A program made the translations under genes and the position numbers. DNA of 64,000 nucleotides. Origin: Crossaster papposus (Eukaryota; Echinodermata; Asteroidea; Velatida; Solasteridae). Positions 31,384 through 54,208 of this stretch are shown here, piece after piece. Under the pieces are notes generated by a model. The model did not search any database. It was not told the origin of the DNA and saw nothing but the letters and a program-made list of their open reading frames with translations. The stretch's first letter is position 1. Each line of letters opens with the position of its first letter. Where the stretch lies: assembly GCA_037893245.1 (NCBI GenBank), contig JBAIAA010000507.1, forward strand, positions 1,364,001 through 1,428,000, written 5' to 3'.

Positions 31384-31685
31384 TTAAATAACAAAAGCAA
31401 TCAAAACAATGTTAGCTATTACACCCATCAGCACGGACGCCGATGGAGCGGGCGGGGCGCGGGAGCCAATCTGCGGGGCAGGCTGCACCCCGGCGTCCGG
31501 GTTCACAGGCGCGACGCTAGCGCCCGGGGCGTCGGGGCTGTAGCCGCGATCGGCGGTGTCGCCCGTCGAGGATTCCACGTACAGCTCCGTGCCGTTACTG
31601 CGGGCGTAGATGGATGCGTAGAGCGTCACGGGGGCGGACGGGGGCGAGGCGCCGTCTACCGCACGCTTGGTACGACCGGCGGAGC
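31384..31685 (-). CDS. VWA gene exon 10: RTKR site, linker, GPI signal and stop
   Basis: Acceptor CCCTCTTTTCCAG opens 99 codons and a TAA. It begins SAGRTKRAVDG (possible furin site at 459-462) and continues with VTLYASIYARSNGTELYV, where NGT is a possible glycan site. A Pro/Ala/Asp-rich linker follows, then SASVLMGVIANIVLIAFVI at the very end. With no charged tail after the hydrophobic stretch, GPI anchoring is preferred over a transmembrane helix. Gly528 or Ser529 are plausible attachment residues. Confidence 0.92.
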
Positions 31686-34600
31686 CTGGAAAAGAGGGCA
31701 GGGGTTGATGCCTTCAAGTCATTAGAAGTCAATCAGATGTCACGAACACGGAAATCACTAGTCACTCGATCACAATCAATCGCAATTCACTCACAAGCAA
31801 GTCGAAAGTCAGTCGCAAGTCACTTGCAATTCAATCATAAGCAAGTCACCAGCAATTAGTCACAAGTCACTCGCAAGTCATAGGCACGATTTATTCACAA
31901 GGAGGAAGTCACAAGTCACTCCCAAGTCATTCACAATTCATTCACAAGCAAGTCACTCGCAAGTCACAAGTCACTCGCAAGACACAAGTCACTCGCAAGC
32001 CAAACACAACTCATTCACAAGCAAGTCACAAGTCAATCGCAAGTCAATTACAATTCATTCACAAGCAAGTCACAAGTCACAAGTCACTCGCAAGTCAATC
32101 ACAATTCATTCACAAGCCACTAGCAAGGAAATCACATGAAATCACAACGAAATCACAAGCAAATCACAAGCAAATCACAAGCAAATCACAAGTCATCAGA
32201 TCCCACAGGCATAATTTTAATGCACCCAGTTCCCGTTGTATGTTTTCCTATTTATAAAACCAAGGAAAACACCAAATGCTCTTACACTGTTCACTGTAAC
32301 AAAAAGCTCCATTGAGTCTGTATAAAGCTCTATATAAGGCCTATCGTATTTACTGTACATTTAGCATTGCACCATACTGCGTGCACTACTGAAATTATGA
32401 ACCTCTAGCAACATACCTCATTATGCAAAGGCAATCTTAAAGGGCACCTTTTTAAATTGTATTCAGTAACAATAGATTAGTTCATGCATGTGTACCATCC
32501 CTAGCAAGGAATTGCTTTCAAGATGGCTACAATAGACGGCCACTATAGACATAATGTATGTGATGACTCGCCACGACTTTATGGCATAGTGTTGTTCTTG
32601 CTTTCTAAATGCGCGGTTTTTTTTAAAGGCTGCGTCCGAATTGTACTCGGCTATGGATATGATTAGCATATGGGCTATGGCGAGTGGATGTAGCCGCTCC
32701 CATAGCCGTGTGGATAATTGGGACACGTCCATAGAGCTATATTAAATTAATATAGCTCTATGGACACGTCCTAACATAAAAACATAGGGTGTAGATAATG
32801 CAAACAGTCTCTTGGACCAGAGGCCAATTTCATAAAACATGTACGCACAAAAATGTGCTTAGCACAACAAGTCTTGCTTAGTAAAAACAGGTTATCTGCT
32901 AAACTCCACATGCTTTTCATTCAAAGCAAAAAAAAAAAAAAACACAAAACAAAACAGCTGAATAAAAATCCCCGAGACAGTTCAGCCATTCCTATTGGTC
33001 GAGAGCCCGACGCGTGGGCATGTTTAAACAGCCGATTAAACATGGCCCAGCCGGTCGCGTTTTTGGTGTCGCTTTAAATTTGGACTGAATTCTGGTCCAT
33101 GACCCCTTCATTGACGGGTCCGTATATTATAGCCCCAGTGTCATGTCACATGTCACGTCTATCTCCATAAGGGCACGTGCGAGAGGCACATACCATTCAA
33201 ATAGCTCGAGGGGTGTTCCTCAAAACACGAGGTAAAATTGTTAAACAAAATCTTTTAGAAATTGTACAATTTTGACCGAAAGTTTTGTTGACCCCACATT
33301 GTTAATGCCCTTGCCTTCGGCTAGGGCAATAACGCGTCAAGGCCCACGATCCGGTTTTAAACATACTTGGTTTCAAAACCGGCCGACCAATTTGTATTCC
33401 ATTAAATAAAATGTCATTTGACGTGTACTGATTCGGTCTTGTCAGCAGACCTCTAAAATAAAATGTACCAAGAAAAATATAAACAAAATCTACCTATTAG
33501 TGCGGGATCTATGAAGAGATCCACCCGTCCGTCCGTCTCCACTTTGTAGTCGTGCACGGCCTCGTTGGGGTTGGGTACCTCCGAAGATAGGTAGGCCGTC
33601 ACCAGTCCGGAAGCCGTCATGAATTTGAGCGTAGCGCCCTCAGTTGAATCAATCTTCGAAACCATAAAGATAATTGACCAATTAAAAATAATATCTGGTA
33701 CACTGACTTGTTCATGTAGCTTGGCACAGTTTGACTTTAAATTATCCAGACCAAATATACACTGTTGATATATTAGTTGGGTCATCTGGAACAATTCCGT
33801 GACCGTGGAGAGCAAAGGTTCGTTTCTAAGTGGATTTGTCTTCTATGAAGGTTATATAACAAATCTAGCGGGGGTGTCCCTCGCGAAAGTGTGGGCGGAA
33901 TCCGTGAGAGTCAAAAATCCAAAATGGCCGCTGTCGGCCATTTTGAAAAATATTATTTTGATCGGTTTAGCCTATTTTGCTGTTCAATATATGGTTTATA
34001 CGGTTTTGGGGGCCAAGGAACTCATATCTGATGATGATTTAATGATTTGACCTATTTTTGACCTTCATATTCAAGATGGCGGCAAAAAATGGCCGCCAAA
34101 ACTGGTGAAATCATACAAAATCAAAACTAATATCTAAAAAATATGATCAATTAGTAAAATAGCAATTGGGATTTTATTCCCTGGATGGTAGTAGCTAATT
34201 TTCAGTAGTTCAGTTATGTTTTCATATTAAAAACATCCCAAATGGCCGTCTAAAATGGCCTCGAAAATTAATAAAATAACAAAAAAACGCATATACCACC
34301 TCAAAAATGTGTCATATCGTTTTAAAAAATAACTTTGGATTTGACTCAATGGTTATTAGTAACTAATTTCTGGCAATTAGGTTTTATTACCATTAAAACA
34401 ATCCAAGATGGTGTCCAAAATGGCCACCAAATAGGTAAAATGAATATAACATATCAACAATTTGAACATTGGGTAAAATAATCTTTGGGATTTGGTTCCT
34501 TGGCCATCAGTAACTATAGAACTACAAAGATGGTGGCCAAAATGGCTGCAAAAATGGGTAAATAAAAACCTCAACAATTAGAATTTAGGTTACATCTTAC

Positions 34601-37600
34601 AAAGTGGCCAAGGAATTAAAGTTGATGGTTCATGGTTATCTTCTCTATGGAAGTACAATACATTTACCCCAGACAGAGTTGCACTTAGCAATGTTTGACT
34701 GAAGTAATAACAATCGCGATTAGAATTTGAAGAAAAGTTTCCGAATGAGAAGAAACAGGTGAAATCCTTTAATATTATCTTTTTGCTCATTCCGTTCTAT
34801 TTGTATTGCTCTATTCCAACACTATTAGGTAACTTATACACTTAGAAACACTTTAACAGAACCTTAATATTAGTATGGGGATGGTCAGACAAGAAACCGA
34901 AGCTTGTACTATATACTAGGTCTGCCCCCAATCACAAAAATACATTTAATTATACAATTCATGATTATCCTTGGATGATTTCGGTTTTTACACCTAATGT
35001 ACTTCTACTTTCTTCAAGAAACAGTGCATTTTCCCGTTTTATGGCGTACAAGTGGCGATCGAGTATGGTACTCATCTCTATTTGAAAAGTCCTAATAAGT
35101 GAACGAGCAAACTGTGTGACACCCCAAGATATAAATACAAAAATGACCAGCCAAACCGATTTCCAATTACGTCTATTAGAGCGTGTACAAAATATTAAAA
35201 AGAAAATTGTTGTTGTCAATGTAAATTGTGATTAAGAGCAAATTATTATTATATTGTGGAATTAAGTTATTATTAACACATTAAAAGTTAAGGATGTGAT
35301 TTATTAATATTTATTAGGTCATGAATTCATTAAATTAATGTATTCATATGTATTGTTTTGTTATTATTATCTACCTGGTTAATCATGAATTGTATAATTA
35401 AATGTATTTTTGTGATTGGGGGCAGACCTAGTATATAGTACAAGCTTCGGTTTCTTGTCTGACCATCCCCATACTAATATTAAGGTTCTGTTAAAGTGTT
35501 TCTAAGTGTATAAGTTACCTAATAGTGTTGGAATAGAGCAATACAAATATAACGGAATGAGCAAAAAGATAATATTAAAGGATTTCACCTGTTTCTTCTC
35601 ATTCGGAAATTGTTCTTCAAATTCTAATCGCGATTGTTATTACTTCAGTCAAACATTGCTAATTGCAACTCTGTCTGGGGTAAATGTATTGTACTTCCAT
35701 AGAGAAGATAACCATGAGCCATCAACTTTAATTCCTTGGCCACTTTGTAAGATGTACATGTAACCTAAATTATAATTGTTGAGGTTTTTATTTACCCATT
35801 TTTGCAGCCATTTTGGCCACCATCTTTGTAGTTCTATAGTTATACCCCAGTCACAATTAAAGCGGAGCCCGGGCGGCGTGTGCGATTTCTAGGCATCGGC
35901 CGGCGTGTAGAGGTCGGCGAAAGATCGTGCGATATGGCGGTCACAGTCACAATTAAAAGTGCCCCGTACGCTGCCATGACGGGGCCCGGGGGGTCGCCAA
36001 CCGGCGATCGGCCGACTTTCTTGGAAATGGGGTCGAATTATTGGCCCGTTTATCGGCCGGTGTCCGGCAGGCACTCGTCCGGTGCCCTGCTTATGTCCTT
36101 GCGATACCCCTGCGGTATCCGGCAGGGTGCCAACCAATTCGTACAAGTCGTACGGCGGCCGGACGGGCATCTGTAGTGTGCCTGTCGAGTGGCCAGCGAT
36201 CAACGGCCGGCGGCAGAAGCTCTCATCTGACCTTCTTAATGGCCCTGTCACACTAGAACGTTTCAGGCCAACGCGTGAGTAGCGCGTTAAAAAAATGCTG
36301 GCAAACGCTGAACTTCCACAGAAAAAGTCAAGTGGAACCGTGATTTCAGCGTGTCCATAACGCGTTAATAACGGGTTCATAGCGTTCGCCAGCGCGTGAA
36401 TAACGCGTTAGTAACGCGCTCGACGACTGATGAACGACTGCCCAGCGCGTGAGTAGCGCGGTCCAACGCGCGCCAGCGTACGGCAACGAACACATGATTA
36501 GTTGTACAAAAAGATGACGCGCTACTACAGTAATGGCCCTGTCACACCAGAACGTTTTAGGCCAACGTGTTGAAATTTCGGCAACACGCGGGTAAACGCT
36601 GACCAACGCTGAAATCACGGTTCCACTTGACTTTTTCTGTGAAAGTTCAGCAATTGCCAGCGTATCAACTATTTTTAACGCGCTACTCATGCATTGGCCT
36701 AAAACGTCCTGGTGTGGCAGGGCCATAACCAGCGTGTCGCAAGCGTACGCCGGCGTACGCCAGCGTGTGAATAGCGGGTTGATAACGATCGTCTAGCGTG
36801 TTCGACGCGTGAGTAACGAATCTAAAACGCGCCGCCAGCGTGTGCAGTCACACGCTGGCAAACGCTGGAAATTGTAGCTATTTTGAAAAAAAAATTTCCT
36901 CAGCGTATGACAGCGTGTCCCAGCGTGTGAGTAACGCGCTCATCGTGTTGCTAACGCTGGCCTAGCGTTGGTTAGCGTTTTCCAGCGTGTTGCCAAAATT
37001 ACAACACGCTACTCACGCGTTGGCCTAAAATGTTCTGGTGTGACAGGGCCATTAAATAAGAAAATGCCGTTGATACCTCCACAACGCTTGCGGGCACCTG
37101 CACAGCGCGTGTAGGTCGCCCGGTTGAGGGAGAGGTTGGCGTTTGCACGCTATACCGCTACAACCTGGTTCTTGTTGCATTGGTGGCTAAAGAAGAGATG
37201 TAGTACTTGCACTATGAAACTTGTGTGATAAACTGTGTGTAGATGTAGATGAGCCGCTTTTTTTACCCTGCGAGCCCCGGCCGATGCATGACCGATTTCA
37301 GGCTGGGCGCCGGCAGGGCGCCGTCTGGCCCCCGGCCGATTTCCGGCCAGGCACCGCCAAGTCGGCCGGACGCCTGGCGGGACCCGGCCGGCGTGTGGGC
37401 GGCGCCTGGCCGATATATTGATTGTCTGGGTTGTCCAAAATTTGGCTCGGCGCCCGCCCGACGTGTGCGATGCCCTGCCGGACATCGGCTAGGCATCGAC
37501 CGATTTATTGGCGATCAGTTTGCGATGCGAAACGCCGCACCAGGTTTTAAGTCCGAGTTAAAAGTAACTCGATGCCCGCCCGATGCCAAAAAATTACCCG

Positions 37601-40600
37601 CAGCCGCAAGGAGTCCCGTGGGGCCCCGGCCGAAAATGCCTAGAAATCCGCCGCAAACTAATCGCAAACCCATCGCAAGCCAATTGTGACTGGGGTATTA
37701 CTGATGGCCAAAGAACCAAATCCCAAAGATTATTTTACCCAATGTTCAAATTGTTGATACGTTATATTCATTTTACCTATTTGGTGGCCATTTTGGACAC
37801 CATCTTGGATTGTTTTAATGGTAATAAAACCTAATTGCCAGAAATTAGTTACTAATAACCATTGAGTCAAATCCAAAGGTATTTTTTAAAACGGTATGAC
37901 ACATTTTTGAGGTGGTATATGCGGTTTTTTGTTATTTTATTAATTTTCGAGGCCATTTTAGACGGCCATGCGGTTTTCTGTTATTTTATTAATTTTGGAG
38001 GCCATTTTAGACGGCCATTTGGGATGTTTTTAATATGAAAACATAACTGAACTACTGAAAATTAGCTACTACCATCCAGGGAATGAAATCCCAATTGCTA
38101 TTTTACTAATTGATCATATTTTTTAGATATTAGTTTTGATTTTGTATGATTTCACCATTTTTGGCGGCCATTTTTTGCCGCCATCTTGAATATGAAGGTC
38201 AAAAATAGGTCAAATCATTAAATCATCATCAGATATGAGTTCCTTGACCCCAAAAACCTTATAAACCATATATTGAACAGCAAAATAGGCTAAACCGATC
38301 AAAATAATATTTTTCAAAATGGTCGACAGCGGCCATTTTGGATTTTTGACTCTCACGGATTCCGCCCACACTTTCGCGAGGGACACCCCCGCTAGATTTG
38401 TTATATAACCTTCATAGAAGACAAATCCACTTAGAAACGAACCTTTGCTCTCCACGGTCACGGAATTGTTCCAGATGACCCAACTATATCACGTGATTCG
38501 GGGCAAGCTCTTGCATAGTTACGTTAGAGACGCTCAGCACCAATACATTGTTCATAATGGTTGAGAATGGTACAAGGACACCAGGCCATTCCAGAGCCGG
38601 GGGTTGCTAGCGTAAGGCTTGCCCCGAATCACGTGATATAGCAACAGTGCCTTTGGTCTGGAGAATTTAAATGTAAACTGTGCCAAGCTGAGTGAACAAG
38701 TCAGTGTACCACTCAGATATTATTCAAATTCCACACGCAAATGGTCAATTGAGTTACCCAATTATATCGAAGTGGCGTTTTTAAGCATGGTGTTAATGAT
38801 AGGATACACCATTTGCAGACATCGACAAATTTTTACTACCGAATCATTAAGAAATATCTTACTGATTTGAAAGGTAATAATGATTCTAGGCATCCTGCAA
38901 AATGATTGCCCTTTGTATCCTGTCATTGTTCTGAAACTATATATAAAGATGAATATAAGATTATAAAATGTTTGCCGGACGGAGATCGCGAAAAAATAAC
39001 ATAAATACAAAAACGAACGCCATTTATCTTGTTATTTGTCCTCTTATTTTCGGTATCCATGATTGTACAACTTCGGACAGGTCAGTTAAACGATATTTAC
39101 TATAAAATGCAACTTCCCAAATTCACCCATTCCTGATAATTCAAGCAAATAGACCAACCAATGGTGTATAATTATTATCTTTAAGGTGAAGTGTGTTCAT
39201 TGCAAACTGGTTTTCTTTTGGTCAGTCACATGACAGTCACGGGATGATCAGTCACGTGATGGTCTGACGCACGATGACAAAACGGCAGCCGTCCATTTAG
39301 ATAATAATGTGACTTAGTTCGTGAATCTGATTAGTAATTAGCATAAACATTTAGTCCTGTGAAATGGTGAAAATCTGAGCGATGCCCGCAATAATAATAA
39401 TAATAACCGGCATATCTGAATGAGGTCTACACTATGAGATTTCAGACTTTATTTCCCTTTAAAAAAAATCGGTAAAACAATTTTTAAAAAGAGAAAAAAA
39501 GAAACGAATTCGAAGCTAAAGACATTTCAAACTTTATTTCCCCTTAAAATAAATTCACCAAAGCCGCAAATTAGAAAGACAAAAAAATCGGTAAACAAAA
39601 ACAGGAACTTCGAGGATTCGTCCCCACAACCTCCATTCTCTATACGCACATGATATGTATCGACTGACGCGACTGAGTTATCAGAATGATAACGAGAATT
39701 TTAGACGAGAATTTTAGACGAGAATTCATTGCACGTACCAATAATATAAGTCGTACGTACGACATACAAGTCGTACGTACGACATATAAGTCGTATACGT
39801 ACGGAATATAAGCCGTAGGTATATACGGCATAATAAGTCGTACGAACGAGCTAAAGTAAGAGATACTATAATTATTTTCACCATGTCCCCAATACAGCTT
39901 TGTACTCTTGCCTTTCGGTGACATCGGATCCAGTAAAACAGAAATAAATCCGGTCGCCCGTTCTAAGGTCAGATCGGTGCCATTTTGGAAAGGCACAGCA
40001 CTTCTTCGATCTATATATCCGATGGCCTGATGACCCGGTAAAACCTGAAAGGTGGGCGGCGGGCCTTAGACCCCAACGCGCGCTTCGATAAACCATTTTA
40101 CGGAATCCTATATCCCAAGGGTCGTGTTTTGCATTTCAAAACCCTTCAAAAACCGTTTGAGTGGTAAAATCATCAGGGCAAGAAGTTGAACACCCTGTCA
40201 CGTTCCTCTACAAACGGCACGCGTAATTGTTTATGAGCAGTATCATAACTGGGCATATAATATGCAGACCACACTAAGTGAAAGACAATCGGTTCTCGAA
40301 GCCTTGGATTTCAAAATTTAACTCGCCCCGACAATAAACTTGGAAACCAAATTAGTCAATGAAAAGTTAGCATGGCAGAATTCGCAGCGCAGATCTTAAG
40401 GTCTAAGGACGATGTGCCCTCTGTTTATATTTGTATTCAAATGTGCCCGGCGGTATGCGCACGCATCGTGATTTTGCATAACATTTGGTTAAGGATGACA
40501 CTCGCAGGTCAGGCGATCTGACCTGCATGCGACGTCACTCCTTAACCACATGTTATGCTAAGCATAATGCGTGCGTATATACCTAGTCTTTCTTTGCCAA

Positions 40601-43600: not shown

Positions 43601-46600
43601 CTCACTTTATTTCCAACCGTACATCGTCTCCAATACTAAGAGCGGTTAGTGTTGGGCGCGTACAGCTCGACACCCTGGGAACAAGGTTGCCAATGGCAGT
43701 AATAGTCTGGTTCATAGTACGCTTTGTTGCATGTATTGTGTAGAGCAAGAGAAGCGGAAACATGTCATTTGACTATACCCAGCAAGATATGTGGCAGAGG
43801 GGTACCTCCCTCTTATCCCTATACTTTATACGCACTCGACACTATTGTAACCTAACCCATCCCCCCTTGAAACCTAAAAGGAATTCCTGAGATTCCGGGA
43901 ACACAATGGTCAACACAAAAGAGGGGGGATTTTCTCTGCCACATATCGTGCTTCATATGGAGTCTGGGTGCTGGGTCGGGTAATTATCAGCACCCAGACT
44001 CCAAGCGGCATTAAACAGAGTGATTACAACATCTCGAACACACATTTATTCCCTTAGTGTTGAATCGGCATTATAAGTGTACGGTCAGTGACTATACACT
44101 GTATTCCTTAACAGTTGGAATTTCAAGCACTAAAGGGATCGTATACGTTTGGTAATTGGAACCCATTGTTTGTTTCAATCGTATATAGTTATAGATATAT
44201 ACCATAAAACTAACCTGTAACAAATTTCATTTCAAAAGGTCGTAGCGATTTTGAGAAATTGCCAAAGATCTGTAGCGGTTATGTCCACGCAGGAAGAATA
44301 ATCTGCATTTGAATACACAATCTGAGAAACGTCACTGCATGCAGTAACGCTTCTCAGATTCAATTTTGTTGGGATAAAAAGTGATATCTTTTTCCATAAC
44401 CGCAGTATACTTCGAAGTGAAAAGTTTCTAAAAATGCACTATACTATCCAAAGCTGCTGTACTTCTTACCAAGTAAGTTTGTATTGCCATTAATTTTTGG
44501 AGTAATTACCAAACGTATACCATCCCTTTAAACTGATGAATTCAACACATTGAGTGTATACAACTCACGTATAATGTTCCGGGCGGGGAATTGAACCCGG
44601 GCTACATTGGCGAGAGGCGAGCGCTTCACTCACAAGCCACTCACAAGCCACTCACAGGCCACTCACAGGCCACTCACAGGCCACTCACAGGCCACTCACA
44701 GGCCACTCACAGGCCACTCACAGGCCACTCACAGGCCACTCACAGGCCACTCACAGGCCACTCACAGGCCACTCACAGGCCACTCACAGGCCACTCACAG
44801 GCCACTCACAGGCCACTCACAGGCCACTCACAGGCCACTCACAGGCCACTCACAGGCCACTCACAGGCCACTCACAGGCCACTCACAGGCCACTCACAGG
44901 CCACTCACAGGCCACTCACAGGCCACTCACAGGCCACTCACAGGCCACTCACAGGCCACTCACAGGCCACTCACAGGCCACTCACAGGCCACTCACAGGC
45001 CACTCACAGGCCACTCACAGGCCACTCACAGGCCACTCACAGGCCACTCACAGGCCACTCACAGGCCACTCACAGGCCACTCACAGGCCACTCACAGGCC
45101 ACTCACAGGCCACTCACAGGCCACTCACAGGCCACTCACAGGCCACTCACAGGCCACTCACAGGCCACTCACAGGCCACTCACAGGCCACTCACAGGCCA
45201 CTCACGCAAACGCACAGGCCACTCACAGGCCACTCACAGGCCACTCACAGGCCACTCACAGGCCACTCACAGGCCACTCACAGGCCACTCACAGGCCACT
45301 CACAGGCCACTCACAGGCCACTCACAGGCCACTCACAGGCCACTCACAGGCCACTCACAAGCCACTCACAGGCCACTCACAAGCCACTCACAAGCCACTC
45401 ACAAACCACTCACGAGCCACTCACAAGCCACCCCAGTTCAATGCAGTAGTTTTAAGACGTTATATAAACGACTTTCTCACCGCCGAGGGAAAGAGCACAG
45501 GGAACTCCTTGTTCGTCTTCCCATCGGTGAGAATGACAGCGATACGCGGAACCGCGTAGTCTACGGGTCTGGCCCCGTGATCCACGCTGAAGCTGTTCTG
45601 CCGTATGAAGTCTATGGCCGCTCCCACAGCAGTACCTTTAAAGCAAATTACCCCATTTATAAAGGGACAATGTTTACTTTTTGTAACTATCAAAAAAGCA
45701 GCAAACCAAATTATCCCCGTTTTCAAGAAGAGACACATGTGGATTATGAAGAAAAATAGTTATCAAAATAATCGCGAGAGTTTTCTCGTTTTATTTGGAA
45801 AACAAATTGAAACAACTCAGTACAGTAAGGAAAATGTGGATTATGAAGAAAACTCGTCTTCGAGATAATCGCGAGAAGTTTCTATTTCCAAAAAAAAAAA
45901 AATGAAATTGTGACCCACCACCCCAAAATCAGGCTAAAGTCGAAATTTTCATATGAGAAATTTTTATACCATTGGATTGCTAGCGTTTTAAGCTTTAAAA
46001 TGATACATCACATGCACCAGTACCGCTATGGAATGAAAAGTAACGACGCTTCAAAAAGTGACATTTTGTTGCCGTTCGCGGCAACAAGTTTGCTCAATTT
46101 GAGTAATAGCAACGACAACAAAAATCAGGAGAAGGCCGATATTATCACTTTCGGGGATTTTTAAAAAGGTTTAAACATGAACAGCCTATAAATTAGAGTT
46201 TTAACCAACGATTTATGAACAAATAAAAAATCGACCGGCAACACATTTTTTGTGTGTACAATGCCATATCTCGAAATGGCATTTGCCGACTTCCGCCTGG
46301 TTTTGGCCTGGTGGGTCACAATTATTCCTCCTGGCATGTTGTCATTTTGAAGAGAACAAAAAAACCAAGAAGTCAAAAAATGCGTCTCAGAGACGTACTT
46401 TTGGAAATGTCCATTACATGTGTAGTAGTTGGTTCAAAATCGAAATCTTATAGTGTTATTTTCTCGGATTAAATACCTTTTTCATTTTTTTTTTTTTTTT
46501 TGGGGGGGGGTTAGTTATTGTTATCATACCTCCTCCATTGTATTCAATCTCATCTACGGCCCTCTGGATGTCATCTTTGTTGTCATAGTCACCGAGGTCA

Positions 46601-49600
46601 AAGGCCGCAGTGACCTCGTGTGAGAACTGGAGACAGCTCACCCGCGTCTGGTCGTCCCGTGGCCCGATATTAAACGCATCCACAACCTTGGTATAACCCA
46701 ATTGCGAATCCACGGTCAATATCCCCATTACGAAACCAAGCAATAATCAGATTAAACATCGAATCAAGAACACACGTTGTTACAACCAACCTTTGATTTC
46801 TGAAAGCTTTTACGCTCAATTCCAAAATCAAGACAGGTCCGCATTCGTCTTTTCACTAGCGCGTTTAGGGTTTCAATTTTTCCCAATTTTTTTTATTTTT
46901 TTTTAATTTCATTTTTTTCTCAAACGGCCAAGGCCTATTGATTAATTATCCTTTGTTCTACGACCTTTTAGAATAATCCCAGGAATAACATTTTCTGTGC
47001 GTCACTGACGCTAAAATATGATCTATCAATGTTTTTATCAACCTTATTTCTCCAACTTGTTTCACCTTTGTTTGTTTTCAAACCTCTTTCTTAAGAAGAA
47101 AAACAATTTCCACTAGGGCCATAATTTACTTAAAGGTAGAGATAGGCCTACACCATTTGCAGATATCGAAAATATTTACTACCGAATTATTAAGAAATAT
47201 CTTACTCATTTGAAAGTAAATAATGATTCTAGGCATTCAGCAAAATGATTGCACTAGATATCCTGTAATTATTCCGAAAAGTAGAATTTTATTAAGAAAA
47301 ATTCGGGATCGCCGGACGGCGATCGCGAAAAAACCCAAAGATAACATTAGAATAACTGCCCAACGCTGGTTGAAAACAAACGCTGTTTTTCGTGCTTTTC
47401 TCGGCATCCATGATTGTTAAACTTCGGACAGGTCAGTTAAACGATATTTACTATAAAATACAGCCCCTCAATTTTCTACCTATAATTCAAGCAATCACCA
47501 ATGGTGTATCCTACCTTTAGGTCTCCAATAAAACTGGTTCATTATTTTGGGGTAAACTTTTGAGTAAATATAGGCGCATTAAGGCCGATTCGTACTTCAC
47601 GTGAATGACTTTGCGAAGTGATTTCGTCACGGCAGCAGGGAACGTCACAAAGAAACTTAAATTGTTTACGCCATGAAATTCGCTTCGCATTCGCTTTCGC
47701 GTGAAGTATTAACCGGTTTTTATAGTTACACTTAAACTGTTGCAGGTCATCCTGCCAAACAACCTAAACATTTTGTCCCCGAGTCGTCCAAGTTGGAATA
47801 ATAACAAATGAAATGGTATTAACATAAATTAAACTCGCCTTTTTGACGAAGTCTTTGCTTCGGAGAAAGCCTTCTTTACCCACGGACAGCGAAGCGTCGA
47901 GTGCAAAAACAACATCGATACCAACTTTGCAAACTTAGCAAGAACAGAAATGAAAAGCCACGATTATTATTATCATCACGCGGTTTGCAACACCACAACT
48001 ATACGTGATATTTTGGTTGGCCCGTTGTACCTAAGCAAGTCACTTTACTGCAATTGCCTCTCTCTACCCAGGAGTATAAATGGTACCTGTGAAGGTAGAG
48101 ACCAAACTGCGCTGATCTTGAGCTGCTGCAGAAATGGTCTCGTTCCGGATGAACAAGGATAATAATTGTAAGCACAATTCAAACAATTTCTGCACTGTGA
48201 AAACCTTTCGTAAAATAACAGGGTTTTTTACATGAACATTTTGTCTATATCGCCGTATTTTAGTTAAAAGGATTTTGAACGTAAAATTGCGGCACTGCGA
48301 CCTAGAAAATATCACGCATCCGTAGTTTTCATGTTTAAACGTTAATTTATACACTCTAAAAAATGTGTTTAGCGAGGAAACGTGTTTCGGTTTGTAAACA
48401 TGTTTAGATGCTAAATACACGTATTCGATTCCTAAATATCAACGTTCAATGGTTAAACACTACCCATCCTCGTGCTAAACATGGTTACAAACTGATAGCA
48501 AGAAACTGTTTAGAAAAGGTGTTTACTCGCTAAACAGAGTTTGCAGTGTACAGAGGATATATTTACAAGATCACTAGGCTTTGTCAAAATACAACATTGT
48601 GTGTAAATCAACCCAGTCTCCTTCTTAAATTGTGTACATATCACAATTGACCAATTGTGTGTATATCACAATTTAAGAAACTATACATGCGCAGTAATGC
48701 TGGCAAAATGGAGGTTGGTTCCTAAAGAGTGAATAAACAAGTGTAAAATGTTCTTAATTACTTGAATTAGTTGAAAGAAGAAAAAAAAGTCGGGTTAGGG
48801 TACAGAAAAAATAAAAACAAATCATATTACCGCATTAACAGCAATTCTTATTAACTAATTCAAGTATTTAAGAACATTATACACTTGTTTGTTCACTATT
48901 CGAGAACCAACCTCCGTTTTGCCAGCATTACTGCGCATGTACAGTTTCTTAAATTGTTATATACACACAATAGGTCAATTGTGATATGTACACAATTTAA
49001 GAAGTGTATGGGCCGGTGTAAATATACACCAACACCAACAGAGTGTTGTTTATTTACAGAGAATCTACTGTTATCTTACAATAATCTCATTACGCATCAA
49101 CAGACTAATTAGAACTGAGAACATTTGTAGTTCATAAAAGTATGTTGAAATTCTGGTTGTTGTTTTTTTACCCAAAATGCACTTTCCTAACCATAATTTG
49201 TTATTATTAAAAAAATTATAGGATAGAATTGAGATTTTTGGCAAAGATAGGTTCATAATTATGCCTTTCGCATTAACATATTTTCAAAGACCGGTTAATA
49301 AAGTTTTTTACAATTTTTTTACAAGTTTTTTACAAGTTTTTTTACAAGGTGCTGCGGCGCACTTTGCAGTCACTGCCAGGAACACCGAGGCAAACCCCTC
49401 CTCTTAAGCCGTGTTCGCACTGGACTTTTTTTTGGGGGGGAAGGTTTTACTGAGACGATAGTAAAATGAAAAATGGTAAAAGTACCCATCGTCTCGGTAA
49501 GTTTTATCAAAAAAGGTCCAGTGCGAACAGGGCTTTAGTAATATGTGCATTACACAACACACGGGACCTACGGCTGGCTTTACGTCCCATCCGAAGGACG

Positions 49601-52600
49601 AAGTAATAGTGGTTAAGTGCCTTGCCCAAGGACACACGAGTCGAGACCGGGACTCAAACCCCCACTACTGATCAGAAACAACAGAGCTTGAGTAAAAGTG
49701 CTCTTAACCGCTTAGCCATAACACGCCACAAAGATATGCCGTTTAGGCTATACTTGTACATGTACATGTTTTGTTTGTTATGGCGCCTATCAAAAATAGA
49801 TTTTCAAATTGAATAGATAATTTGCTATAGCAACACACTAGAGAATGAGCTATAATGAAAACATTTTGCTCATGCGTCGATGATAAGTAATCTATTAACC
49901 AATTTCAACTTTTAAATTAAGGCGCGTCCCCCCTCCTCGTTCAAATATTTAGTCAGATGTGATCTCGATCGTGTGCGCGCGCGTGCACTGTACTTTCGGA
50001 GTGCAAATTTTGAGCACTTTTGCCTCTTCAAACAAAAACAAAATGACCCGGAAAAGGTATACATTTTATCGAGAAAACAAATGAAAATAGATTTGCACAC
50101 ATGGTTGGAACGTCCAGGGGCCAATTTCATAGAGCTGCTAAGCACACAAGTTTGCTTAGCAAGAAAAAAATTCTTGGCAAAAACAAGGTTAGGGACAAAT
50201 TTTCACCTGATCTTTATTGTTTTCGATTGATAATCAGCTGGGTTTTTTTGGACTTAGCATGAAAAACCCGTAGAATTTTGGCTGGTAACCTGTTTTTTAA
50301 TGAGCAAGACTTTGTTTGTGCTAAGCAACTTGTTGTGCTTAGCAGCTCTATGAAATTGGCCCCAGGATATAAGCTTTCATTTTGGTACATGCTCAATAAA
50401 TAGCCCCTCCCCGTTTCGAACATTTGACGTTTTTTTATATTAATAGCTTTCATGGAATTCAAATTACACAACTGAGAAAAAAGAACTAAAGCCGCGTTCG
50501 CATTGGACTTTTTTTGGTAAAACCTACGGAGACTGTTGTCAACTTTAACCAAATTAAATCCAATGCGGACAGAGGGTAACATTGTCAAATCGTTCATTTT
50601 ACCCTTCGCAACAGTAAGATCTACAGGCCCAAGCTTATAGCGGAGGATTTAACACCGTTAACTTTGACAATCACGTACGGTAACTTTTGACAATATTAAG
50701 TCCAATTCGAACGCGGCTTCGGTGCAATACACCATTATGATATTTTAGTTTTTCAATTATTTTTGTATCGAAATCATTTTTGTTGTTAATTAAACTTGAA
50801 ACTTTAGATATAGCAAACTGAATGGGATTGATCAGAGAAAATGCAGACAAAATAAACATTTATTAAAAATATCTAATGGATAATAAATTCATAGTTTCAT
50901 TGTAACGTTCACGGTCGAAAATGGATGGGAGTATACTGGCATGACAATCGGCAAATTGGGCAGCCAACAAGATTGTAGGTCGGTTATGAAGGGAAGTTGA
51001 TGATTTACCAAGGGAATATTTACTGCTGGAAATAATAATAATAATAATAACCTCCAAATAGGCACTTGAGAAGACAATCCCATAGAGACGTACACCAACT
51101 TAAAACAGTCCTAACTTGTTTACCCTAACCCTTTTTTCTACGATCTTCGAGATTTATGCTATTTAGACCCCAATCTGTCGTTCTAGAGCAAAAAAATTAC
51201 TCCAAAATATCTTTTTTTAGGGTAGCTAGACACTTAGGGAGACACTGAAATGTTTTCCTAAGTGCCACTGTCTCCTTATTACCTAAAAACGTACGCTAAT
51301 TTGTCTCCCCAAGTGCTCATTTAGTTCTTATATAGTACACATAACTACCAAGACTGGTACTCACGGCGCTCTAATGTTCTTACCCCGGTCATTGGGCCCA
51401 TGAAACATTCCAAATACCATCTCAGCTCTCAGGGGAGTATACAGCTCGATGCTGCTATTTCGGCGCAATTAGCAACCAAATCAATCACAATAACCATCTC
51501 TGCCCTCACAGGTACCTATTTACTCCTGGGTATACGGGTGGAGAGAAGCAATGAGTGACAAAGTGCCTTGCCCAAGGGCACACGTACCATAGTCCCAGGC
51601 CGGACTCAAACCCACAACATGCAGCTTCACCTACAGATATACAAATTCAATGCTCCAGACCACGAAGCCACGGCACTCCATAAATACGTTTGTATATGAA
51701 CCAACATCAAGCGCCGAGTAAACAATTGGGCTTTTTCTTCTCTTCCCGGGAACAGTAAGCAATTACTTGTAGGTTTACTTCCTTTCAATCAGACCTTTTA
51801 AAGGAGGTGAGTGAAAAATCCAAATCATTGAATTTTCGGGGATTTCAGGACGGTGTACCCCTTTAACAAATGTGCGCCGGGATTATTTTGACATTTGGCA
51901 CAGGCTAGGCAAGGAATTGTTGTTGTTTTCCACGAATCTTGATCCGCGACAGGTTCGGGACGGCATCTGTGGGTAGCACACCCTGATTTTGAAAGGCCCC
52001 GTCGCTCGCGAGTGACATATATATCTGGTTTTGCTCGTGATGTGTTTATCCGTCGGCCGTTTTGAATACCGGAAGAAAAAAAATGCGTGTATACACGTAA
52101 TCCGAAGCGAACTGGATAACACTAACAATATACCGAATTCATCAATCTCACACTCTACGACTTACCCTCTTGCTGTTCCAACTCCGTCACCTTGACGATA
52201 AACTCGAACTCTTCCCCCTCGGGGTCATAATACCGCATCCACCACGCGGCCTGCTCCCGAACCTCGTAAGCCACCTTGTCTACCGACGGTGACGTCATCA
52301 TGACGTATATCCGGGCCGCCAGGGCCGATAGAAGGGGTGTCCGGAGGTCTGAGTATGTGACGTTACGCCAGTCGATCCCGAAGGTACCGTCCCGGAGTCG
52401 CGAGTAGTAACTACAAAGGAAATGGTAAATCGTCGGTTAGCTCGCGAAAACATTAGGAGAGTCAGGTGGGAGTCAGGTTGGCGTAGCAGTTCCTTCCTCG
52501 CCTTCCACCGCAGGCTGTGACCCGGTTTGAACCCCGCCAGAGCCAATATTATGTGGATTGGGTTTTCAGTCCCTGTCTGATTCCGTGGGTTTTCCCCCAG

Positions 52601-54208
52601 GATAATCTTCCGAGTTTGTTTTTTTCTCCCACCTCTAAAACTGTACCTTCTTCTTATTGTCTTCTCTCTACAGGTTTCTTTAGGCTTGCGAGCTACAGTG
52701 CCTAGAGCGCCTTTGAGGGATCCTTGGTTTCATTTATTTATTGTCTATTATTTCACTAAAAGCACAGTGCCGGGCCGTGTCAAATGATTCCACCAACCTT
52801 TCCCATGCCACGTCGGTCAGCGTTTTGGTCATCGAGAACGCCTCCTCACTGACCCTCCAGATTCCCCCGGCCAGACCGCCGGCAAAGGCGGCCGTGTCGG
52901 TACCGTCGGAGGTCTCCACCAGGGCCAGGCGGCGCACCAGGAAAAAATCATCCGAGAAGATGTCGGACAGGAGGATTCGCTGGACGGTTGCCTCCACAAC
53001 CTTTGAATGGGAACCAGATTAAGCCGAATTAAAACTTGTCGGTTGGTAGCTTGAAGAACGCGTAATTGCTTGAATTATTAGGAATGGTGGATGTAAAGGT
53101 AGGATACACCATTGGCATAATTGCGTGAATTGTCAGGAATGGGTGGATGTAAAGGTAGGACACACCATTGTTGATTGCTTGAATTATTAGGAATTGGTGG
53201 ATGTAAAGGTGGGATACACCATTGGTATAATTGCGTGAATTGTCAGGAATTGGTGGATGTAAAGGTAGGATACACCATTGGTAATTGCTTGAATTGTCAA
53301 AAATGGGTGAATGTAAAGGTATATAGGATACACTATTGGTAATTGCTTGAAATATTAGGAATGGGTAGATATAAAGGTAGGATACACCATTGGTATAATT
53401 GCGTGAATTGTCAGGAATGGGTGGATGTAAAGGTAGAATACCCCATTTGTAATTGCTTGAATTGTCAGGAATGGTATTTAAAGGTAGGATACACCATTGG
53501 TATAATTGCGTGAATTGTCAGGAATGGGTAGATGTAAAGGTAGGATACACCATTTGTAATTGCTTGACTTTTTAGGATAGGTGTAAAGGTAAGATACACC
53601 ATTGGTATAATTGCGTGAATTGTCAGGAATGGGTGGATGTAAAGGTACAGATACACCATTGGTAATTGCTTGAATTGTCAGGAATGGGTAGATGTAAAGG
53701 TAGGATACACCATTGGTAATTGCTTGAATTGTCAGAAATGGGTGGATGTAAAGGTATGATACACCATTGGTAATTGCTTGAATTATTAGGATTGATGTAA
53801 AGGTAGTATACACCATTGGTATAATTGCGTGAATTGTCAATAATGGGTGGTTAAGGTATGATACACCATTTGTAATTGCTTGAATTATCAGAAATGGGTG
53901 GATGTAAAGGTTTTAAAGGACTGTGGATGGTTCCTTTAGAAAAAAAAAGAGCTAGGGGGTTAGGGTTAATTGAACATTATTTTGGGATGGATTACGAGCG
54001 AGGACGTGGTTATCATGCGAGCTCTCGACAACCTTGCGAGGTCTATATACCTGTTCTAAATTCATGTTGTCAATCGGCATGTTCACCTCGTACGTACCTC
54101 GGGGCCGATGGCCCCTGGTGTTATGGTCAAGTCGACCGAGCCAGCACGCGTGACGCTCGGGAGAAGAAATGCCGCGGCCACCGCCAACCAAAGTGCCATA
54201 CTTAGCAT
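31384..54208 (-). CDS. GPI-anchored VWA protein with N-terminal lysozyme/transglycosylase-like segment (10 exons, complete)
   Basis: Ten exons join without a phase conflict to 555 codons (554 residues). Residues 1-22 form a signal peptide. Residues 38-165 resemble a lysozyme/SLT-fold segment, with ALVETSDGTD (Glu66), GGIWRV (82-87), FGIDW (115-119) and SALAARIYV (133-141). A VWA domain covers 189-374 with a full MIDAS: Asp196-x-Ser198-x-Ser200, Thr269 and Asp305. A beta-rich module follows (377-455) with PNPNEAVHDY. RTKR (459-462) is a possible furin site. A Pro/Ala linker leads to a hydrophobic tail (539-554) with nothing after it, typical of a GPI signal. From recollection, similar SLT-like plus VWA proteins occur in lancelets, echinoderms and other invertebrates, and their function is not established. 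A surface adhesion or defence role is inference. MIDAS implies a metal-dependent ligand. Confidence 0.9.
31765..32195. repeat. Degenerate CAAGTCACTCG minisatellite
   Basis: Loose repeats of CAAGTCACTCGCAAGTCA and ACAATTCATTCACAAGCA in the last VWA intron, ending in AAGCAAATCAC units. The composition recalls the 10-bp arrays at 9888 and 44630, but the unit differs. Confidence 0.85.
32630..32785. mobile_element. Fragment related to the Harbinger-type element at 14854
   Basis: GGCTGCGTCCGAATTGTACT and GGACACGTCC-like ends, with CATAGAGCTATATTAAATTA forming a hairpin. Boundaries are uncertain. Confidence 0.45.
32821..33070. mobile_element. Truncated MITE A joined to a dispersed block
   Basis: GAGGCCAATTTCATAAAACA begins a MITE A-like end, which breaks off near an A-run (32927-32941). 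From about 32965 the CCATTCCTATTGGTCGAGAG block shared with 4800 and 43450 follows. Confidence 0.65.
33494..33653 (-). CDS. VWA gene exon 9: beta-rich module
   Basis: Acceptor TTTATGGTTTCGAAG and donor ATAG|GTAGAT bound 160 nt encoding residues 402-454. GATLKFMTASGLVTAYLSSE is followed by VPNPNEAVHDYKVETDGR and DLFIDPALI. The PNPNEA...DY motif is characteristic of this module. An inverted-repeat arm begins about 18 nt upstream of the acceptor, so the likely branch point lies in repeat DNA. Confidence 0.9.
36240..37051. mobile_element. Nested element with TGGCCCTGTCACAC ends
   Basis: Ends TGGCCCTGTCACACTAGAAC and its complement TTCTGGTGTGACAGGGCCA, flanked by TTAA on both sides. It is filled with AACGCGTGAGTAGCGCG-like units. 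It lies inside the Harbinger-type element and itself hosts a smaller relative. Confidence 0.85.
36534..36725. mobile_element. 192-bp relative nested within the element above
   Basis: Ends TGGCCCTGTCACACCAGAAC and TCCTGGTGTGGCAGGGCCA, flanked by TAA. It is the same family as its host, so this is self-insertion. Confidence 0.85.
38485..38640. mobile_element. Short MITE with TATATCACGTGATTCGGGGC ends
   Basis: A 24-bp perfect inverted end pair. Comparison with the left foldback arm shows a clean insertion with a TA-type duplication, suggesting a Tc1/mariner-like mobiliser. About 155 bp. Confidence 0.88.
38792..39184. mobile_element. MITE family C, copy 8
   Basis: From GTTAATGATAGGATACACCA to CCAATGGTGTATAATTATTA. 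The core is slightly shortened. It adjoins the right end of the foldback. Confidence 0.8.
39735..39855. repeat. GTCGTACGTACGAC palindrome cluster
   Basis: Five spaced copies of AAGTCGTACGTACGACATAT variants, the same motif as at 13880-14470. Confidence 0.8.
39890..40052 (-). other. Segment with acceptor and two overlapping open phases
   Basis: Acceptor-like CCGCCCACCTTTCAG is followed by two long open phases. One reads VLPGHQAIGYIDRRSAVPFQ onward, the other GFTGSSGHRIYRSKKCCAFP onward. It lies in intron 8 of the VWA gene, but neither phase is needed, because exons 8 and 9 already join in phase. It may be an alternative exon, a repeat fragment or chance. Confidence 0.2.
40406..41104. mobile_element. 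MITE family F, long copy
   Basis: Ends GACGATGTGCCCTCTGTTTA and CATGTAAACAGAGGCCCATC. The middle (40560-41040) is not present in the short copy at 2400 and may be another insertion. Confidence 0.7.
41337..41740. mobile_element. MITE family B, copy 3
   Basis: GATTGGCATCGTATACGTTT to AACGTATACGACCCCTTTAA. It ends about 20 nt from the donor of VWA exon 8. Confidence 0.85.
41763..41839 (-). CDS. VWA gene exon 8: short linker to the beta-rich module
   Basis: A 77-nt exon found because phase required it: entry in phase 1 and exit in phase 0. The acceptor is GATGAATAACAG and the donor is GAG|GTACAA. It reads TTPVAVGQPIVADLEEGEAR followed by FVSYE, residues 377-401. The GxPIxxxxEEGEARFxxY pattern fits the start of the beta module that usually follows the VWA domain in this family. 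The pyrimidine tract is modest. Confidence 0.82.
42010..42125. repeat. Short GAACGTAGTTGAACGTAGT tandem units
   Basis: Repeats of GAACGTAGT and CCGTAGTTGA within TCACATCTTACGGTCATGAA, probably part of another MITE. Confidence 0.6.
42239..42486. mobile_element. MITE family D, copy 3
   Basis: TTAACCAGTTCGCGCTGGAG to CCGGCGCGAACTGGTTAA, 248 bp. Confidence 0.88.
42499..43132. mobile_element. Inverted-repeat element next to VWA exon 7
   Basis: Ends AATGCTGCTCTCACACTGTG and its exact complement, 634 bp. Interior GCTTACCAACGC-type units repeat, and a TTCGCATTCGCTTTCGCG block recurs at 47685. No transposase frame. It ends 28 nt from the exon 7 donor. Confidence 0.88.
43161..43329 (-). CDS. VWA gene exon 7: end of the VWA domain
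   Basis: Acceptor TTGTGCTGCAG and donor GTGGGT bound 169 nt encoding residues 320-375. LAQREGIIMYCIGVGDSDES is the final core strand of the VWA fold. It is followed by ELSVIATRP, VLHVLNYASI and IGTRACK, whose cysteine typically closes the domain. It ends in phase 1. A 630-bp DNA element ends about 28 nt beyond the donor. Confidence 0.93.
43430..43580. repeat. Dispersed block copy
   Basis: CATTCCTATTGGTCGAGAGC shared with 4800-4885 and 32965-33060. The nature of the block is unknown. Confidence 0.6.
44131..44531. mobile_element. MITE family B, copy 4
   Basis: TAAAGGGATCGTATACGTTT to AAACGTATACCATCCCTTTA, 400 bp. Confidence 0.88.
44628..45432. repeat. (CCACTCACAG)n minisatellite in VWA intron 6
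   Basis: About 80 copies of a 10-bp unit, nearly perfect in the middle and varied (CACAAGC) at both ends. One interruption (CACGCAAACG) lies near 45205. A 322-codon frame across it is a consequence of a stop-free unit and lacks real protein features. The array ends about 49 nt from the donor of exon 6. Confidence 0.95.
45481..45635 (-). CDS. VWA gene exon 6: VWA core with MIDAS Thr and Asp
   Basis: Acceptor TTTGCTTTAAAG and donor GCG|GTGAGA bound 155 nt encoding residues 269-319. TAVGAAIDFIRQN gives the MIDAS Thr269, and IAVILTDGKTN gives Asp305. The codon interrupted by the preceding intron completes the GGGT motif. The donor lies about 50 nt from a 0.8-kb minisatellite in the intron. Confidence 0.93.
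45907..46322. mobile_element. Inverted-repeat element with GTGACCCACCA ends
   Basis: Ends ATTGTGACCCACCACCCCAA and GGCCTGGTGGGTCACAAT, about 415 bp, in VWA intron 5. The GTGACCC ends resemble those at 3347 and 57069. Confidence 0.75.
46530..46686 (-). CDS. VWA gene exon 5: VWA core
   Basis: Its 157 nt encode residues 216-267 in phase 0 at the start. VVDAFNIGPRDDQTRVSC is followed by LQFSHEVTAAFDLGDYDNK and AVDEIEYNGG, standard VWA blocks. The acceptor is TTATACCAAG, with a weak pyrimidine tract, and the donor is GGAGG|GTATGA. It ends in phase 1. The stretch just 3' on this strand is a C-rich then A-rich run. Confidence 0.93.
47130..47520. mobile_element. MITE family C, copy 9
   Basis: TTAAAGGTAGAGATAGGCCT to AATGGTGTATCCTACCTTTA, with a complete GATCGCCGGACGGCGATCGC centre. 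It lies in VWA intron 4. Confidence 0.88.
47839..47924 (-). CDS. VWA gene exon 4: MIDAS strand, with a GC donor
   Basis: Its 86 nt encode residues 188-215. IDVVFALDASLSVGKEGF carries the MIDAS motif Asp196-x-Ser198-x-Ser200, and SKDFVKK is the following helix. The acceptor is TTTGCAAAG. The best 3' boundary is AAAAAG|GCGAGT, a GC-AG intron with otherwise ideal donor context. It joins KK to VVDAF exactly as VWA domains align. The nearest GT downstream would add five residues and has a poor context. Confidence 0.85.
48340..48550. repeat. Mirror repeats of GTTTAGCG/TGTTTAG type
   Basis: Blocks such as GTGTTTAGCGAGGAAACGTG and their complements form a loose palindrome in VWA intron 3. No clear termini. 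Confidence 0.5.
48622..49005. mobile_element. Long palindromic element
   Basis: CTTCTTAAATTGTGTACATA and its complement bound about 385 bp whose halves mirror each other, including TGCCAGCATTACTGCGCATG in the right arm. Confidence 0.82.
49406..49535. mobile_element. 130-bp palindromic MITE
   Basis: Ends AAGCCGTGTTCGCACTGGAC and GTCCAGTGCGAACAGGGCTT. Relatives with the same ends are at 50488 and 62414. Confidence 0.82.
49555..49727. mobile_element. SINE/LINE-tail fragment
   Basis: TTAAGTGCCTTGCCCAAGGA followed by GAGACCGGGACTCAAACCCC and GCTCTTAACCGCTTAGCCA. This is a widely seen invertebrate short interspersed sequence with tRNA-like B-box remains. A relative is at 51335. Confidence 0.6.
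50117..50363. mobile_element. MITE family A, copy 5
   Basis: GGGGCCAATTTCATAGAGCT to AGCTCTATGAAATTGGCCCC, 247 bp with near-perfect ends. Confidence 0.9.
50488..50719. mobile_element. MITE with AAGCCGCGTTCGCATTGGAC ends
   Basis: The inverted partner is AAGTCCAATTCGAACGCGGCT. It is longer than its relative at 49406 because of an internal segment. Confidence 0.78.
51045..51220. repeat. Dispersed repeat shared with 13944-14095
   Basis: AATAACCTCCAAATAGGCA, CAGTCCTAACTTGTTTACCC and ATCTGTCGTTCTAG are common to both. No termini identified. Confidence 0.7.
51335..51685. mobile_element. SINE/LINE-tail fragment
   Basis: GGTACCTATTTACTCCTGGG and AAAGTGCCTTGCCCAAGGGC, followed by GGCCGGACTCAAACCCACAA, resemble the common invertebrate SINE/L2 tail. 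Confidence 0.6.
51862..52120. mobile_element. MITE family D, diverged copy 4
   Basis: TTAACAAATGTGCGCCGGGA to CCGAAGCGAACTGGATAA. More diverged than the other copies and therefore probably older. It ends about 45 nt from the donor of VWA exon 3. Confidence 0.7.
52166..52410 (-). CDS. VWA gene exon 3: lysozyme/SLT-like segment, second half
   Basis: The acceptor is CCTTTGTAG and the donor is GTAAGT. Its 245 nt encode residues 106-186. FGIDWRNVTYSDLRTPLLSA and LAARIYVMM are followed by EQAAWWMRYYDPEGEEFEF, matching the usual end of this domain family. Asn121-Val-Thr is a possible glycosylation site. It ends with one base of Val187. Confidence 0.92.
52462..52755 (+). mobile_element. tRNA-derived SINE, copy 2
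   Basis: GTTGGCGTAGCAGTTCCTTC (A-box-like) and GACCCGGTTTGAACCCCGCC (B-box-like) are followed by the body shared with 19866-20190 and an AT-rich TTTATTTATTGTC tail. It lies between VWA exons 3 and 2. Confidence 0.8.
52798..53000 (-). CDS. VWA gene exon 2: lysozyme/SLT-like segment, first half
   Basis: The acceptor is CCATTCAAAG and the donor is GAAAG|GTTGGT. Its 203 nt encode residues 38-104. It contains VQRILLSDIFSDDFFLVRRL, the acidic ALVETSDGTD stretch and GGIWRVSEEAF, the most conserved block of this family as I recall it. A SINE tail lies about 40 nt beyond the donor. It ends in phase 2, and the next exon completes Ser105. Confidence 0.9.
53040..53910. repeat. Tandem array built from one terminus of MITE C
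   Basis: Sixteen or more copies of a 48-58-bp unit containing AAAGGTAGGATACACCATTG, AATTGCTTGAATTGTCAGGA and ATGGGTGGATGT. This is exactly the outermost end of MITE C without its interior. Two unit variants (GGTATAATTGCGTG and GGTAATTGCTTG) alternate. It lies in VWA intron 1. Confidence 0.92.
54098..54208 (-). CDS. VWA gene exon 1: start codon and signal peptide
   Basis: It encodes 37 residues. MLSMALWLAVAAAFLLPS is followed by VTRA, a textbook signal peptide with cleavage likely after Ala22. The donor is GAG|GTACGT, phase 0. A second in-frame ATG lies three codons in (54199) and could be used instead. The first is chosen because it lengthens the hydrophobic region and follows an AAGAA context. 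Confidence 0.85.

Follow-up and report, generated by a model that had tools for sequence, protein, structure and literature searches.

A phage-related, probably lysozyme-superfamily domain in a predicted GPI-anchored VWA protein family of the echinoderm Crossaster papposus

A stretch of 64,000 nucleotides of the Crossaster papposus contig JBAIAA010000507.1 (the window; all coordinates given below are positions in it) carries a minus-strand gene at 54208-31384, the predicted product of which joins an N-terminal domain of about 165 residues (residues 24-187; the N-domain) to a von Willebrand factor A (VWA) domain. Sequence comparisons indicate that the N-domain very probably shares ancestry with phrog_3108, a lysozyme-type family of phage proteins in PHROGs. 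Together with two further loci in the same genome, the best explanation is that of three related genes of one family in an echinoderm, the products of which would be surface proteins held by a glycosylphosphatidylinositol (GPI) anchor. The initial annotation of this gene had proposed a GPI-anchored protein in which a lysozyme/transglycosylase-like domain precedes an adhesion VWA. This reading is supported by the homology to phrog_3108 and its jumbo-phage member and by a structural model of the nearest phage relative; its narrower part, kinship with goose-type lysozymes or SLT transglycosylases as such, did not stand, and the nearest kin found are a phage family without an assigned function rather than goose-type lysozymes or SLT proper.

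Relationship of the N-domain to phrog_3108

The N-domain has no match to any Pfam or NCBIfam family, and no PDB chain is found with it by sequence at E ≤ 10. Two further N-domain loci, C498 and C1044, are present in the animal's own genome (1.02 Gb). Over the N-domain, identity amounts to 37% between the window copy and each of these loci and to 53% between the two loci themselves, with Glu66 and the run GGIWRV being the same in all three copies. Since two other loci align along the N-domain with these positions kept, its sequence pattern goes beyond chance. Downstream of the N-domain, both paralogous loci, which were read exon by exon with no end-to-end assembly, also encode a VWA, in which DGSGS or DSSGS is found, as well as a beta module. 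A candidate last exon ending in a GPI-type tail was chosen by eye in either locus.

The PHROG profile of phrog_3108 matches two of the three animal copies, viz., the window copy (3.4e-5) and the C1044 copy (0.0027). The C498 copy does not match the profile but finds a jumbo-phage member of the family at 1e-6. A tblastn search of 50,697 phage records with the animal copies placed this one protein first for all three (C498, 1e-6; C1044, 4e-6; window copy, 9e-5). It is encoded by an unannotated gene of the 636-kb uncultured phage LR756504, is 203 aa long and matches phrog_3108 at 1.4e-13. It reads TET...GRGVWQIDE...GIDWDDVEWDDC...IAARL...WKKYYNT, which is the animal pattern with a Gln in place of an Arg. 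Searches hit the record LR756504.1 at three places, the main one being the protein described here. The phage protein phiKO2 Gp54 is among those reached from the jumbo-phage member. When the animal copies and the jumbo-phage protein were used together as queries, the jumbo phage was again the sole result, and a search of viral contigs and of the genomes of 84,980 prokaryote species with peptide patterns of the animal domain, which can miss distant kin, found no relatives.

A profile-profile comparison of the three animal copies with 34 phage proteins (129-203 aa each) gave a probability of 96.4, an E-value of 1.3e-9 and a score of 62.4 over 141 columns, which take in the C-terminal W..YY...F helix. 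By way of control, 100 column shuffles reached a maximum score of 22.5, and the reversed alignment scored 13.1. Single animal copies scored 30-41 against all 34 phage proteins, and omission of the jumbo-phage protein from the phage set left a probability of 90 and a score of 44.8 over 50 columns. The 34 proteins (alignment A3; alignment A4 holds 14 of them) were drawn from 41 collected loci, of which L026, L028, L050 and L054 duplicate other rows, L033 is cut at its start, L034 has a doubtful start and L057 was not extracted. In the open-licence literature of PMC we found no mention of phrog_3108 and no description of this phage family in eukaryotes.

A search of the animal's own genome with phrog_3108 yielded a match solely on a bacterial contig. 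This contig of the animal assembly (G000:C8, at least 5.2 Mb; loci L015-L020, L064, L066 and L067) looks bacterial, with long unbroken frames, five SLT matches over the cut-off and COX1 frames as long as 682 aa, and it bears a prophage-like phrog_3108 gene with an in-frame stop. The mitochondrial contig of the assembly (C1841, 16.3 kb) agrees with an echinoderm, probably a sea star. Its COX1 contains 10 AAA codons, several of which fall on sites occupied by Asn in animals (GFGNW, NNMSF, INFIT and DRN), a sign of the echinoderm code; a putative ND4L frame and COX2 come after COX1, and the putative ND1 and ND2 frames are on the other strand.

Putative active-site positions, domain layout and a candidate role

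A lysozyme ancestry of the N-domain is well supported by its phage relatives. Eleven of the 34 phage proteins match the Pfam family Phage_lysozyme2 at E ≤ 1 (best 2.4e-5), and the best structural alignments of a model made for the nearest phage relative, with modest Z-scores, are to lytic transglycosylases and goose-type lysozymes. In these enzymes, which form glycoside hydrolase family 23 (GH23), a Glu at the end of a helix lies ahead of a Gly-rich turn. A joint alignment of the 34 phage and three animal sequences places Glu66 of the window copy (in VETSDG; codon at 52914-52916) on a Glu that is invariant in all 37. Likewise invariant throughout are the second Gly of the GGIW block (residues 82-85; 52857-52868) and the Arg of ALAAR. 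The Glu66 of VETSDGTD and the GGIW block had both been pointed out in the initial annotation, and they hold their positions in the 557-residue numbering used here; the conservation of Glu66, on which that proposal leaned, is likewise borne out. This Glu, putatively catalytic and ahead of a Gly-rich turn, would agree with a place of the N-domain in the lysozyme superfamily. Judged by its motif, the N-domain is a divergent relative of phrog_3108, short of a full member: of the family's Glu, GxxQ and Arg, all three animal copies keep E, G and R, and all three carry R for Q. The supposed general acid thus appears to be kept, while one conserved partner is altered identically in every animal copy. 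Homologues with GGIWQV, in which the Gln is retained, may exist in other invertebrates. The two groups are homologous over most of the animal domain; the phage proteins differ in carrying the complete GxxQ and the animal proteins in being fused to a VWA, a beta module and a GPI-type tail.

Membership in better known lysozyme families was considered and rejected. For SLT/GH23 (PF01464), the animal domain has no Pfam match over the cut-off and a direct profile comparison was negative, even though the best structural alignments of the phage relative's model fall in this group. The GH24 type (PF00959) matches neither the domain nor, at E ≤ 10, any place in the whole genome, and a search of the genome with PF18013 gave no match.

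The remainder of the protein follows a layout of VWA, beta-rich module, Pro/Ser/Thr stalk and hydrophobic GPI-type C-terminus. The VWA (PF00092) spans residues 193-367 with a Pfam E-value of 1.6e-41 (142.9 bits, the cut-off being 23.8), and its metal ion-dependent adhesion site (MIDAS) is complete, comprising DASLS from residue 199, the Thr of GGGT and the Asp of LTDG. Its nearest relatives among the PDB matches listed (60 of 99) are collagen VI, a mussel thread matrix protein, von Willebrand factor and integrins. The VWA with a MIDAS is common to the present protein and to adhesion proteins such as collagen VI, the mussel proximal thread matrix protein and the integrin alpha I domains, but the solved ones have no lysozyme-like domain by sequence, given that the N-domain alone finds no PDB chain at E ≤ 10. 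The full MIDAS, the signal peptide, the beta module and the GPI-type tail of the earlier model are all recovered in our rebuilt one, the signal peptide and the hydrophobic tail having been read by eye. Among open-licence PMC articles, judged by title and the start of the abstract within the broader matches listed, none was found on a layout combining a VWA with a lysozyme domain.

These observations suggest a glycan-directed role for the protein, which we hold to be somewhat more plausible than its absence; catalysis by the putative active site is less certain than that. The signal peptide would deliver the lysozyme-superfamily domain outside the cell, where its cleft would hold bacterial cell wall or some other glycan containing N-acetylglucosamine. 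The MIDAS of the VWA would use a metal ion to bind a ligand, be it a protein or part of the matrix, and the GPI anchor would keep both domains at the cell surface, such that the protein would catch bacteria or bits of bacterial wall. The initial annotation had likewise put forward glycan cleavage or binding and, possibly, microbe recognition. Glu66 may act as a general acid and cleavage by it is possible. Since the Gln of the phage family is lost, full lytic activity is no more than about equal in likelihood to binding or to a slow or altered cleavage. The homology assigns an unannotated animal ectodomain to a family, suggests its probable fold and singles out a residue for mutation, and it links a family of echinoderm surface proteins to phage proteins for which PHROGs gives no function. 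The relationship hints that the animal may use a phage-style tool to grip or cut the sugars of the bacterial wall.

Origin of the domain and alternative explanations

The explanation that we favour by a modest measure is that of a phage-related lysozyme-superfamily domain, a VWA, a beta module and a stalk forming a GPI-anchored, glycan-directed receptor. Several results weigh against it. The residue after the W of GGIW is Gln in 34 of 34 phage proteins and Arg in all three animal copies. A comparison by hhalign of the animal profile with three SLT sequences (the stretch was found in three of the four SLT loci given, out of five; two of the sequences are identical and represent one gene in overlapping loci) returned a probability of 0.26. 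The window copy alone, compared with the phage set lacking the jumbo phage, scores 15.1, which is within the range of the shuffles. The loss of the Gln also fits a lysozyme-superfamily pseudoenzyme that kept the fold and took a non-microbial partner (a self glycan, matrix or a protein), in which case the product would serve in adhesion or in the matrix and play no part in immunity. This is a sizeable though lesser possibility, in keeping with a layout typical of adhesion molecules and with the nearest PDB relatives of the VWA listed above, but Glu66 and the invariant Gly and Arg are kept at a sequence identity of just 37%, an outcome not favoured if a dead site were drifting freely. That the phage similarity reflects chance, or convergence on a short motif of Glu and Gly-aromatic, in an unrelated animal-specific helical domain is highly improbable. 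The lack of Pfam, NCBIfam and PDB sequence matches for the N-domain would agree with it, as would single phage matches of just 26-28% identity at best and a direct structural model of the window N-domain which, built with intron 2 read through, is poor (pLDDT, the predicted local distance difference test, of 55.6) and finds no useful structural match. Opposed to this are the extent of the profile match through the C-terminal helix, its score relative to the shuffles, and the fact that all three animal copies each reach the same phage protein first.

In a phylogenetic tree, the three animal copies group with the jumbo-phage protein, and the remaining 33 phage proteins stand separate from them (100/99). 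The branches are very long, and the tool warns against trusting the join between the animal copies and the jumbo phage. We prefer a domain transfer from phage to animal in view of the breadth of the phage family, of which a single query found 40 loci, and of the full motif retained in it; this direction is not proven by the tree. The opposite direction, with capture of the domain by the jumbo phage from a eukaryotic source and an older link to phrog_3108, would account for the grouping in the tree and for this protein being the only close phage relative found. It is nevertheless improbable, as the jumbo-phage protein retains the phage Gln and matches phrog_3108 far better than any animal copy, and the tree tool's warning concerns long branches meeting. 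Returning to the transfer from phage to animal, one may go further and suppose that animals made a phage lysis-type lysozyme the outer domain of a family of GPI-anchored VWA receptors in which Glu66, together with an Arg where phages have the Gln, still cuts peptidoglycan, yielding an adhesion receptor tethered to the membrane that tests prey by digestion. We regard this extended version as rather unlikely.

A phage-type lysozyme in an animal genome has a precedent in the bivalve co-opted phage lysozymes (BCPL), which have introns, duplications and some fusions, with PGRP, MALRD2-like and HSPG-like partners (Ren et al. 2017, PMC5303276). BCPL and the present family are alike in being phage-related lysozymes within invertebrate genomes. 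They differ in that BCPL belong to GH24, the family without a match in C. papposus, and the fusion partners listed in the Results of that paper do not include VWA (PMC5303276). If the transfer reading is true, the present family would be another phage-type lysozyme lineage in an animal genome, distinct from the bivalve GH24 and residing within an adhesion receptor.

Gene model and exon structure

The gene model was derived from the genomic sequence alone with splice sites chosen by eye, and on this basis the window gene is confirmed as real and its ten-exon structure upheld, in agreement with the initial annotation. The ten exons join into a single open frame of 557 codons and a stop. The earlier length of 554 residues applies if Met4 is the start, whereas the first ATG gives 557; as Glu66 is numbered from the first ATG, the earlier length and residue number are out of step by three. 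All nine introns have an AG acceptor; eight have a GT donor and intron 4 has a GC donor. In both paralogues the N-domain as far as IPQ is one uninterrupted open stretch where the window gene has introns 1 and 2, and since they read through these positions, the corresponding splice joins are independently supported.

All exons lie on the minus strand. Exon 1 encodes the signal peptide (residues ~1-22, MLSMALWLAVAAAFLLPSVTRA; 54143-54208, by eye) and ends with the start of the lysozyme-like domain (GSVDLTITPGAIGPE; 54098-54142), which aligns with both paralogues over the join to exon 2. The first half of this domain is on exon 2 (52798-53000), as seen from the alignment with the paralogues and phage proteins, and the second half on exon 3 (52166-52410; FGIDW ... 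SALAAR ... QAAWWMRYY ... EFIVKV). The VWA, placed by the gene model and the Pfam match, begins on exon 4 (47839-47933; DASLS of the MIDAS at 47884-47898), continues through exon 5 (46530-46686) and exon 6 (45481-45635), which encodes the Thr (GGGT, at the join) and the Asp (LTDG) of the MIDAS, and ends on exon 7 (43161-43329). The first strands of the beta module are modelled on exon 8 (41763-41839), followed by exon 9 (33494-33653), the beta part of which matches both paralogues (36% and 40%), and exon 10 (31384-31685) is modelled to hold the end of the beta module, the stalk, the GPI-type hydrophobic C-terminus (last ~17 residues) and the stop.

The GC donor of intron 4 lies at 47833-47838 (AAG|GCGAGT), and the C498 paralogue also seems to have a GC donor, after IPQ. 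Within the lysozyme-like domain, the introns of the window gene sit at other positions than those of the paralogues (L012 and L014), and the VWA is a single continuous match in both paralogues compared with four exons in the window gene. These differences would reflect intron gain or loss. Intron 1 consists mostly of a 54-bp tandem array of ~16 copies (53062-53911). Intron 6 holds an 11-bp tandem repeat of 73 copies (44627-45431), which is the source of several long false reading frames. Intron 8 contains a large inverted repeat (33774-38486) with arms at 33774-34292/37968-38486 and 34242-34513/37698-37969 that are 98% complementary, and a nested pair at 34591-34970/35377-35756; the whole resembles a DNA transposon or a foldback element. 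Elsewhere in the window, a 43-bp repeat unit recurs in similar form in two arrays, at 5796-6959 and 12137-12704.
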